The notes beneath the pieces were generated by a model that was not told where the DNA came from, did no database searches, and worked only from the letters and a program-made list of their open reading frames with translations. The translations under genes were made by a program, and so were the position numbers. This document shows positions 57,222-59,456 of a stretch of DNA of 64,000 nt, piece by piece; position 1 is the stretch's first letter; every line of letters begins with the position of its first letter. The DNA is taken from contig CACWHY010000010.1 of NCBI GenBank assembly GCA_902760805.1, positions 19,736 to 83,735 on the forward strand, in the 5' to 3' direction. Origin of the DNA: Ruminococcus flavefaciens (GTDB taxonomy: Bacteria; Bacillota; Clostridia; Oscillospirales; Ruminococcaceae).

Positions 57222-57320
57222 AAACGTAGGGGCGGACCCATGTGTCCGCCCGGCCGTTACGAACACCAAAACCCAGCAGGCCCGAAGGGTCCTGCGAAGA
57301 ACAGTCAAAAGCCGGCGGAG
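57222..57320 (+). repeat. 99-bp direct repeat, copy 1
   Basis: Nearly identical to 57744-57842. It includes one palindromic unit and a GCAGG...CCTGC hairpin. Confidence 0.9.
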
Positions 57321-57743
57321 GAGGTGGGGAGTGAGGGAAAAGAGAGTGCAGAGAGGAAAACCGTATAGAGGGGAGGGGGAGCCGGCTTTTGTACCAGTTT
57401 TTTTTACACACCCTCCCCTCTAGGAGGTGTTCCTCTTTGCATTGACGAGGCGGAGGTCTGACGGACAACAAAACGTAGGGGGCGATGCCCACATCGCCCC
57501 GCCAATATCGTTTCCGCATACGTTTTTCAAATGGCATGGGCGATCGTTTGGTATTAGGCCGGGCGGATAATATCCGCCCCTACATTTACGCATACGTTTT
57601 GCAAAAGGCCGGGACGTCGAGGACGCCGTCCCCTACAATTCGTTTCGGCAGATGTTGTCAAATCGGCCGGGAGGCCGAGGGCGGCCTCCCCTACAATTCA
57701 TTCGGGCATATGATTTCCAAACGGCCGGGCGTCACGAACAACC

Positions 57744-57842
57744 AAACGTAGGGGCGGACCCATGTGTCCGCCCGGCCGTTACGAACACCAAAACCCAGCA
57801 GGCCCGAAGGGTCCTGCGAAGAACAGTCAAAAGCCGGCGGAG
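57744..57842 (+). repeat. 99-bp direct repeat, copy 2
   Basis: Copy of 57222-57320. A 16-bp string, AGTCAAAAGCCGGCGG, is then duplicated in tandem at 57825 and 57841. Confidence 0.9.
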
Positions 57843-58182
57843 TCAAAAGCCGGCGGAGGTCTTACGGACAACAAAACGTAGGGGGCGATGCCCACATCGC
57901 CCCGCCAATATCGTTTCCGCAAATATTTCGATATGTGGCCGGGCGGATAATATCCGCCCCTACATTTACGCACACGTTTTGCAAAAGGCCGGGACGTCGA
58001 GGACGCCGTCCCCTACAATTCGTTTCGGCAGATGTTGTCAAATCTGCCGGGAGGCCGAGGGCGGCCTCCCCTACAATTCATTCGGGCATATGATTTCCAA
58101 ACGGCCGGGCGGATAATATCCGCCCCTACATTTCCGCATACATTGTCCCCATGGCCGGGACGTCGAGGACGCCGTCCCCTAC

Positions 58183-58264
58183 AATTTGTTCCCAGAGAAC
58201 GATCAAGATCCGTCCGCCAAATGACGGACACCGCAATTGTGAATTATTGATCAAAAGATTGTGG
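58183..58264. other. Spacer between repeat array and corA promoter
   Basis: No gene seen; AT-rich towards the promoter. Confidence 0.5.
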
Positions 58265-58293
58265 TTGCATTTTTTCTGAAAATATGTTATACT
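58265..58293 (+). promoter_or_regulatory. Promoter of corA
   Basis: TTGCAT (58265-58270), 17 bp and TATACT (58288-58293). The transcript would start near 58300, leaving a leader of about 230 nt. Confidence 0.75.
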
Positions 58294-58294
58294 A

Positions 58295-58529
58295 ATAGTA
58301 GCCGTGCTGACACGGACTATTACAAATGTACAGGAGGTGCAAAGATGAGCTCTGACCCTTATGGGAGTCTTGAGATCTACCCTCAAAAACGGCAGCGGTG
58401 CTGACCGGACATTCTGATAGTGCTCCCTCGAAAGCGGAGGCAGTATCAGACTGCCCGGCCGGTCCTGCGCTCCAGCCGTGAAATACTTTGAAAGGAGCGC
58501 TGCCTGTCCAAAGCAGGCACAATTTAGCT
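58295..58529 (+). promoter_or_regulatory. Structured corA leader with internal leader ORF
   Basis: In order: a hairpin at 58291-58320 (ATAGT/ACTAT and CCGTG/CACGG), a leader ORF at 58345-58404, and a long hairpin closed by GACCGG (58403-58408) and CCGGTC (58459-58464) with CTGATA/TATCAG and CTCC/GGAG inside. AAAGGAG follows at 58491-58497, then a GCCTG/CAGGC hairpin at 58502-58518. GGCAGCG (58391-58397, in the leader ORF) is fully complementary to CGCTGCC (58498-58504), right after the SD, so two foldings exclude each other. The conserved core of the M-box Mg riboswitch is not seen. Confidence 0.7.
58345..58404 (+). CDS. Leader peptide of corA, 19 residues
   Basis: The frame ATG 58345 to TGA 58402-58404 has AGGAGG exactly 7 bp before the start, one of the best SDs in the window. 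It encodes MSSDPYGSLEIYPQKRQRC: acidic and Pro residues first, then a basic end. The stop overlaps the 5' base of the large downstream stem. MgtL of enteric bacteria, which controls an Mg transporter by ribosome destabilisation at low Mg, has the same sort of composition (Asp/Glu-Pro near the start, then Arg/Lys). Similar logic here is an inference; I know of no homologue. Confidence 0.7.
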   Translation: MSSDPYGSLEIYPQKRQRC

Positions 58530-59456
58530 ATGATCAATTTTTACACTTCAGAGAACGGCCGCCTGATCCAGTGCGAAGAGCCGACCCCCGGCTGCTGGAT
58601 CTCAGTGGTCAGCCCCACTCCCCAGGAGGTCAAGGAGCTGATCGACGGCTACGGCCTTGACAGCGGATTTGTCAAGTCCTCTCTCGATGAGGAGGAGTCA
58701 TCCCGTATCGAGCGTGAGGACGACCAGACCCTTGTGATCATCGACACCCCTGTTTCCTCTATGGACGAGGACCAGACAAGGCTGTTCTACACCATGCCTA
58801 TCGGCATTATCCTCACCGATGAGTACGTCTTCACGATCTCTCTTCAGGAGACCCAGATCATCGACGAGGCCGTAAGAGGAACTATCCGCAACCTCCGCCC
58901 CAGCTTCAAGACACGCTTTGTTTTGCAGCTCCTGCTGAGGATCGCCGCAATGTTCCTCATCTACCTGAAACAGATCGACAAGATCTCATCTGCTGCTGAG
59001 CAGAAGATCCACGACGCCATGAAGAACGAACAGCTCATGCAGCTGCTTGCTCTGGAGAAGTCACTGGTATACTTCTCCACCTCGCTGAAAGCCAACGAGG
59101 CCACTATCGAGAAGATCTTCCGTGGAAGAGTCATCAAGCTCTACGATGAGGATCAGGATCTGCTTGAGGATGTTCTTATCGAGATGAAGCAGGCGATCGA
59201 GATGTCCAGCATCTACACGGGGATCCTGTCCAGTATGATGGACGGCTTCTCCTCCATAATCTCCAACAACCTGAACATCGTCATGTGGCGCCTGACCATA
59301 ATCACCATCGTTATGGAGATCCCCAACATCATGTTCGCATTTTACGGTATCAACACAGTTGACCTGCCCATGCCCTACACATGGTTTGCGATCACCCTGA
59401 CAGTTTTCCTCACAGGCATAACGGCGTTTATCCTGATAAAATGGAAGAAAAAATGA
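58530..59456 (+). CDS. corA: CorA-family magnesium transporter
   Basis: The protein has 308 residues from ATG 58530. An in-frame TTG at 58488 lacks an SD, and homologues start close to MINFY. The soluble alpha/beta funnel domain occupies residues 1-235. Two C-terminal membrane helices follow with YGIN at the end of the first, where GMN is typical, a variant seen in many CorA-like proteins, and the tail WKKK. A pentameric channel for Mg or another divalent ion at the plasma membrane is expected. The nearest strong SD (AAAGGAG) is 32 bp upstream behind a hairpin, while a weak AAGCAGG lies closer, so initiation is probably controlled by leader folding. Confidence 0.92.
   Translation: MINFYTSENGRLIQCEEPTPGCWISVVSPTPQEVKELIDGYGLDSGFVKSSLDEEESSRIEREDDQTLVIIDTPVSSMDEDQTRLFYTMPIGIILTDEYVFTISLQETQIIDEAVRGTIRNLRPSFKTRFVLQLLLRIAAMFLIYLKQIDKISSAAEQKIHDAMKNEQLMQLLALEKSLVYFSTSLKANEATIEKIFRGRVIKLYDEDQDLLEDVLIEMKQAIEMSSIYTGILSSMMDGFSSIISNNLNIVMWRLTIITIVMEIPNIMFAFYGINTVDLPMPYTWFAITLTVFLTGITAFILIKWKKK

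Follow-up and report, generated by a model that had tools for sequence, protein, structure and literature searches.

The corA locus and its leader region

The window, by which we mean the whole 64,000-nt stretch of Ruminococcus flavefaciens DNA that was analysed, carries a corA gene preceded by a short leader open reading frame (ORF) with its own Shine-Dalgarno (SD) sequence and by three RNA strands, R1, R2 and R3, of which R2 is predicted to pair with either of the other two. The features of the locus are listed here with the evidence for each.

58265..58293, + strand: probable promoter TTGCAT-17-TATACT (by-eye reading of the sequence)
58296..58322, + strand: hairpin at the presumed mRNA 5' end (predicted fold)
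58332..58337, + strand: leader Shine-Dalgarno sequence AGGAGG (read in the sequence)
58345..58404, + strand: leader ORF MSSDPYGSLEIYPQKRQRC plus stop, ATG at 58345, 19 codons, TGA at 58402-58404 (Asp-Pro start conserved, tail not)
58354..58359, + strand: Asp4-Pro5 codons GAC CCT, the conserved core (residues constant, codons variable across loci)
58363..58365, + strand: Gly7 codon GGG (a rare codon, yet kept without exception in the genus)
58388..58407, + strand: R1, the leader end and stop codon, predicted to be able to capture the anti-SD strand (pairing with R2 at -24.2 kcal/mol)
58408..58459, + strand: extra hairpin of this species within the R1:R2 loop (predicted fold)
58460..58479, + strand: R2, the anti-SD strand, including GCGCTCC at 58467-58473 (fold and duplex analysis)
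58491..58500, + strand: R3, the corA SD AAAGGAG with GGAGCGC, paired to R2 in the closed form (fold and duplexes)
58501..58519, + strand: P3, a hairpin between the corA SD and start codon (predicted fold)
58530..59456, + strand: corA, 308 aa, CorA superfamily, with GIN replacing GMN (profile matches; motif read in the sequence)

The corA product matches Pfam CorA at 165.6 bits (cut-off 27) and also matches solved CorA chains; against NCBIfam TIGR00383 it scores 89.3 bits, below the cut-off of 200.75. It is the one CorA match in the source genome (96.5% complete), in which neither MgtE nor an M-box was found, the M-box covariance model (RF00380) being unmatched both there and in the leader region. 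Within the genus, a pattern search found GIN in place of the GMN signature in 26 of 30 CorA loci, the other 4 being unmatched by the pattern, and GMN was kept in 26/26 CorA loci from other genera of the family. Because GIN stands in place of GMN, the cargo of the genus CorA is less certain. A search of the whole window against Rfam gave 5S rRNA as the sole match at gathering score; two permissive matches, both far under gathering score, were rejected.

The leader region folds with a z-score of -2.95, and 0/200 shuffles were equally stable. A preliminary description of this DNA had proposed a promoter, a hairpin, a leader ORF with AGGAGG, and then a large hairpin with its 5' base at 58403. The first hairpin is present in the predicted fold, and the large one does overlap the end of the leader, stop codon included, but the fold places it at 58397-58465. 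The promoter can be read by eye, but a consensus scan of 57900-58700 found none at the scan threshold. Over the same region, a test for an intrinsic-terminator attenuator returned 0 terminator-like sites. The intergenic region farther upstream (57222-58277) contains long direct repeats, among them an exact 99-nt pair (57222-57320 with 57744-57842) and a pair of 185 nt that match at 97%.

A leader peptide with a conserved Asp-Pro start

Conservation of the leader was assessed in sets of corA loci of increasing taxonomic breadth, in all of which an SD-like word was required before a leader was counted. The genus set holds 117 corA gene starts found in 116 of 125 genomes, two of them in a single genome. 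The family set holds 86 loci (26 + 60) from 135 genomes with a match, chosen without regard to the leader and with 4 genus genomes left out. Weak CorA relatives were left out of the order/class set of 68 loci (48 + 20), in which the cut at the gene start is out of frame for about half of the 20 added loci, leaving the uORF scan unaffected. The phylum set holds 28 loci from 88 genomes with a match.

The proposed leader ORF proved to be both present and conserved: 113 of the 117 Ruminococcus corA upstream regions contain an ORF that has its own SD and carries Asp-Pro within residues 3-5, such a leader being absent from L040, L100, L103 and L106. Strict Asp4-Pro5 occurs in 111/117 genus loci, 57/86 loci from other genera of the family and 33/68 loci elsewhere in the order or class, against dinucleotide-shuffle means of 0.05 (20 shuffles), 0.15 and 0.10, respectively. 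It is missing from 6, 29 and 35 loci of these sets, and Glu4-Pro5 is found instead in 0, 1 and 4 further loci. Asp-Pro at each of seven other residue positions occurs in 0-5 loci per set (shuffle means 0.05-0.30). When every acidic-Pro start whose Pro is residue 4 or residue 5 is counted, the leader is found in 113/117 genus, 59/86 family, 38/68 order/class and 10/28 phylum loci, with shuffle means of 0.65, 1.05, 0.65 and 0.20. The codons at the leader start vary (GAC or GAT; CCT, CCC, CCG or CCA), as do the start codons (ATG, GTG or TTG). Because the residues are kept while the codons vary synonymously, selection acts on the start of the peptide. The preliminary description had likened the peptide to MgtL for its early Asp-Pro and its basic end. 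The former is the conserved core, and E. coli K-12 MgtL (MEPDPTP...) has the same residues, Asp4-Pro5; the latter does not hold up, the tail being free in length and sequence. Full peptides run from 10 to 45 residues, and conservation within the genus is limited to roughly the first 8.

A motif scan for the Ruminococcus type retrieved 106 stretches; among the 80 listed, 77 precede a CorA ORF and the other 3 look like chance. The family pattern scan placed 24 of 30 loci before CorA. The strict DP[YC]G pattern matched 6/394 genomes in the order, and its sole match outside the family (L149) sits inside a long coding ORF, looks like chance and was rejected; further reach across taxa comes with the wider x-x-[DE]-P form and not with strict DP[YC]G. 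Searches of NCBIfam and Pfam with three leader peptides found no match. At locus L124 of genome G407, the leader-like ORF MDADPCGIFMPRPKE lies before an ORF resembling by eye a CBS-domain protein; this may be chance.

Codon 7 is GGG in 111/111 strict genus leaders, a count made without constraint on this codon, and GGG makes up 15 of the 278 Gly codons in five coding sequences of the window. The rare Gly7 GGG may be read slowly and so lengthen the Asp-Pro stage. A hairpin between GGG and a downstream pyrimidine stretch was considered as a reason for this invariance and not accepted (z -1.9, with 153/5000 permutations as good; present in 73/113 loci, compared with 54.6, maximum 63, for shuffled tails). 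A test for an amino-acid attenuator found no single-residue codon run in the window peptide, the relatives being judged by eye.

Two helices compete for the anti-SD strand

In the window, GCGCTCC of R2 (58467-58473) pairs with GGAGCGC of R3 (58494-58500), and the R1:R2 helix forms in the folding model when the corA SD is held open. These pairings were compared across the 113 genus loci in which both leader and SD were found, R1 being sought from 8 nt past codon 7 in the duplex, geometry and opening-cost analyses. A locus's own R1:R2 duplex averaged -18.4 kcal/mol vs -11.8 kcal/mol for permuted partners (z -20.9), and its own R2:R3 duplex -16.2 vs -13.2 kcal/mol (z -13.8). After dereplication to 47 loci the z-scores were -12.5 and -9.0, with 0/5000 permutations reaching either. 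The control pair R1:R3 showed no gain (z +2.6 for 113 loci and +0.9 for the 47). Among the family and class loci, 70 of 154 (63 dereplicated) passed the filters, and the 63 gave z -3.7 for R1:R2 and -5.7 for R2:R3, with 0/5000 permutations for each and a control of 0.6.

An alignment of 38 sequences, hand-picked from the 113 genus loci for absence of long inserts, allowed individual pairs to be followed. Compensatory two-sided changes are seen in all 8 R1:R2 pairs, with pairing in 93.8% of cells, and 0/500 shuffles reached any of five measures. For R2:R3, 83.4% of cells are paired, compared with 82.3% when shuffled and 36.5-60.1% when slid; two-sided changes were seen in 2/10 pairs, and 178/500 shuffles had as many. 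The few two-sided changes in R2:R3 are explained by the invariance of the SD within R3. On this comparative evidence, R1:R2 and R2:R3 are mutually exclusive, covarying helices, one of them at or in the uORF. The R1:R2 loop is variable: besides the extra hairpin of this species, some relatives (e.g., L033 and L036) also carry long inserts there. Spacers between SD and start codon measure at least 22 nt in 95/113 genus loci and fold at -11.7 kcal/mol vs -5.7 kcal/mol when shuffled, with 68/95 folding below all 20 shuffles.

The competition first proposed for this leader was a different one, between GGCAGCG in the late leader codons (58391-58397) and CGCTGCC just past the corA SD (58498-58504). 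The two 7-mers are indeed complementary, but their pairing is not conserved: among 101 loci, all 7 matches occur only in the window (L001) and a close relative (L002), five more loci have 6, and the mean longest match of a locus with its own partner equals that with permuted partners (4.13 and 4.13). GGCAGCG sits within R1, whose conserved partner is R2. As judged from the compared sequences, the conserved competition is that of R1:R2 with the pairing of R2 (58467-58473) to the SD (58494-58500), and not that of the 7-mers. In its general form, the idea that a ribosome at the leader end would alter which stem can form is supported by helix covariation, geometry and opening cost.

A model for Mg2+ control of corA

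The sequences themselves show the conserved leader, the fixed position of its Asp-Pro, the covariation of R1:R2 and R2:R3, the geometry, and a genome without M-box or MgtE matches; we infer that the leader is translated, that ribosomes drop off, that Mg2+ is the signal, that the helices are chosen kinetically and which way the choice goes. We lean towards an account in which drop-off at Asp-Pro under low Mg2+ would leave R1 to trap R2, so that CorA is made, and in which R2 would hide the SD under high Mg2+. The leader start x-x-Asp-Pro would destabilise a newly started ribosome. With ample Mg2+, the ribosome would pass Asp-Pro and arrive at R1, which lies at or just past the leader end or, in about half of the relatives, inside the leader; it would there cover or melt R1, and the freed R2 would pair with the corA SD (R3), giving little CorA. 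With scarce Mg2+, the ribosome would pause or drop off at codons 4-5, before R1, and R1 would pair with R2 as the RNA emerges, leaving R3 open for CorA to be made. This proposed logic follows that described for MgtL and comes nearest to that of MgtQ. For MgtL, the available sections of PMC11282234 describe ribosome drop-off on EPDP at low Mg2+ and state that, in that paper's constructs, EttA dependence requires at least DPEE; for MgtQ, those of PMC8092293 describe release of the ribosome binding site (RBS) when acidic codons abort translation. A single Asp-Pro would presumably be a weaker destabiliser than EPDP.

When R1 is sought from the leader ATG on, a ribosome holding the Pro codon in its P site stops short of R1 in 103/113 loci (median gap 12 nt), and in the other 10 the best R1 starts inside the footprint of this ribosome. 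A search begun beyond the footprint gives 113/113 by construction. The leader stop lies before or in R1 in 58/113 loci, the window included, with the terminating footprint on R1 in all of them, and the leader reads through R1 in the other 55/113. In the folding model, covering R1 made the SD costlier to open, the mean going from 4.2 to 7.8 kcal/mol with an increase in 107/113 loci, while covering the stretch 5' of R1 gave 3.7 kcal/mol (higher in 15/113) and covering the stretch between R1 and R2 gave 4.2 kcal/mol (70 loci); in the window itself the cost rose only a little, from 3.6 to 4.7 kcal/mol. Because R1 is defined as the best partner of R2, these analyses speak to geometry and cost, and the independent test of pairing is the permuted-partner duplex comparison.

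Equilibrium partition functions for 90 loci showed no switch, the SD being unpaired at 0.33 when the RNA was free, 0.36 with the ribosome at Asp-Pro and 0.34 with it at the stop; in the window the values were flat (0.50, 0.50 and 0.49). Any real switch must therefore be kinetic. For the remaining 23 loci, at which the footprint of the terminating ribosome lies on the SD or within 3 nt of it, the value of 0.67 says little because the footprint partly forces it. The sign of the switch may differ where the leader stop lies beyond R2.

A switch of opposite sign, in which completing the leader would open the corA SD by translational coupling and drop-off would lower corA, has in its favor the terminating ribosome on or beside the SD in those 23/113 genus loci, as well as a number of other genera in which the stop lies 11-30 nt before corA, between R2 and R3. 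Nevertheless, we consider it unlikely, since a stop before or in R1, as in the window and the rest of the 58 loci, means that R2 is not reached; covering R1 closes the SD in the folding model, and an importer so controlled would be off under Mg2+ shortage. Better folding of the leader region than of its shuffles and covarying helices would also suit a riboswitch, the RNA itself sensing Mg2+ or another ligand and the peptide being accessory. We find this very improbable: R1 and R2 change freely and, the SD aside, no long conserved stretch lies between, whereas it is the peptide start that is conserved, and the window has no Rfam match at gathering score besides 5S rRNA. A similarly low probability attaches to an arrest peptide, or to the leader being the target of another factor (such as an ABC-F protein or some state of a ribosomal protein), Mg2+ then acting indirectly; EttA modulates MgtL and L31 modulates MgtQ in enteric bacteria, according to the available sections of PMC11282234 and PMC8092293, but no conserved C-terminal arrest motif is seen by eye among these leaders, whose conservation in the genus is confined to the first ~8 residues. 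Classical attenuation, in which the leader would respond not to Mg2+ but to a charged tRNA or an amino acid (with Pro, Asp, Tyr/Cys or the rare GGG codon as candidates), could point to the invariant GGG at codon 7 of the 111 strict genus leaders but is scarcely credible, given one codon of each kind at the leader start, Glu in place of Asp with Pro retained in 5 loci, acidic-Pro leaders also before some mgtE genes, which encode an unrelated Mg transporter, and the lack of Tyr6-Gly7 in many other genera.

Wider distribution

Control of corA through ribosome drop-off at Asp-Pro, our preferred reading, may extend beyond Ruminococcus. A set of mgtE loci was drawn from class genomes (67 genomes with a match, 30 loci listed, of which the ORFs of L464 and L473 may not be mgtE), and an acidic-Pro leader precedes the gene in 3 of the 30 loci listed (MDYDPLP..., MDSDPLP... 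and MVDPGPLP...), a count made with no shuffle control. At one of these loci (L463), an M-box at 219-383 is followed by the acidic-Pro uORF MVDPGPLP... at 447-536 and then mgtE, two candidate Mg2+ sensors in tandem. At the corA gene of a class relative (L371), an M-box at 882-1047 lies upstream of an Asp-Pro leader at 1398-1487, a distance of 351-516 nt.

Tentatively, and with the chances close to evenly balanced, we suggest that class-wide and partly phylum-wide acidic-Pro leaders, most of them Asp4-Pro5, govern CorA and some MgtE genes of Bacillota through changing anti-SD switches, with Mg2+ sensed by the translating ribosome; the signature shared with MgtL would reflect deep ancestry or repeated reinvention, and the leaders could be a stand-in for the M-box in genomes that lack it. 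Ribosome destabilisation as a Mg2+ sensor is known from a few enteric genes; the original paper on ribosome drop-off is reportedly Chadani 2017, beside which Gall 2016 is said to be cited. If our suggestion is true, ribosome-based Mg2+ sensing would be a general bacterial strategy, serving corA and some mgtE genes across Clostridia, and more than 100 natural leader variants would be at hand for testing why young ribosomes fall off. It would likewise give a candidate mechanism of Mg2+ control to a Ruminococcus in whose genome neither M-box nor MgtE was found.

Comparison with known leader systems

A literature search, with most subscription papers and bioRxiv preprints outside its scope, found no report of such corA leaders in Bacillota, and the available main text of PMC11109978, which surveys candidate RNAs and includes eight uORF candidates, makes no mention of corA.

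Among characterized systems, the M-box (ykoK, RF00380) shares with the Ruminococcus leader its cis control of Mg2+ transporters in Bacillota, but has no match in the source genome or leader region. The mycobacterial Mbox-uORF2 (Rv1805A) likewise combines a conserved uORF, an anti-SD/anti-anti-SD platform and Mg2+ control, as presented in the available sections of PMC12810186. There, however, the Mbox controls the uORF, whereas in this Ruminococcus genome no Mbox was found and it is the uORF that we propose as sensor. CorL of E. coli is also a leader before corA. We take it to be the 18-codon, TTG-started ysgD of K-12, (M)DTPSRYW..., because a UUG start is named in the available sections of PMC11552253; it differs in having no Asp-Pro dipeptide and a Rho-dependent output.

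The closest likenesses are to MgtL and MgtQ. MgtL, the leader of mgtA in E. coli and Salmonella, is likewise a short, SD-led peptide before a Mg2+ importer, with an Asp4-Pro5 start and two exclusive RNA forms. Its EPDP motif and TPLPRRR tail are absent from the window peptide, and the tails of the relatives are variable. The enteric output is Rho-dependent transcription termination, according to the available sections of PMC11552253 and PMC11282234, whereas that of the Ruminococcus corA leader looks translational because R2 pairs with the corA SD. MgtQ, the mgtB leader of Salmonella, shares early acidic residues, a strong SD, and helices that mask or free a downstream RBS (PMC8092293, available sections). 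However, MgtQ is 8 aa long, with Asp2, Pro4 and Glu5, and lies between two operon genes, whereas the Ruminococcus leader has Asp4-Pro5 and 10-45 aa and precedes corA with seemingly its own promoter.

Three marks of an MgtL/MgtQ-kind leader are found here, namely an SD-led uORF before a Mg2+ transporter gene, an acidic/Pro start and exclusive helices. The preliminary view that a leader peptide in a Firmicute precedes a Mg-transporter-type gene and appears to use an RNA unlike the enteric one is supported. On the best reading of these sequences, the corA leader would work like MgtL and MgtQ, with another peptide, another RNA and in another phylum.
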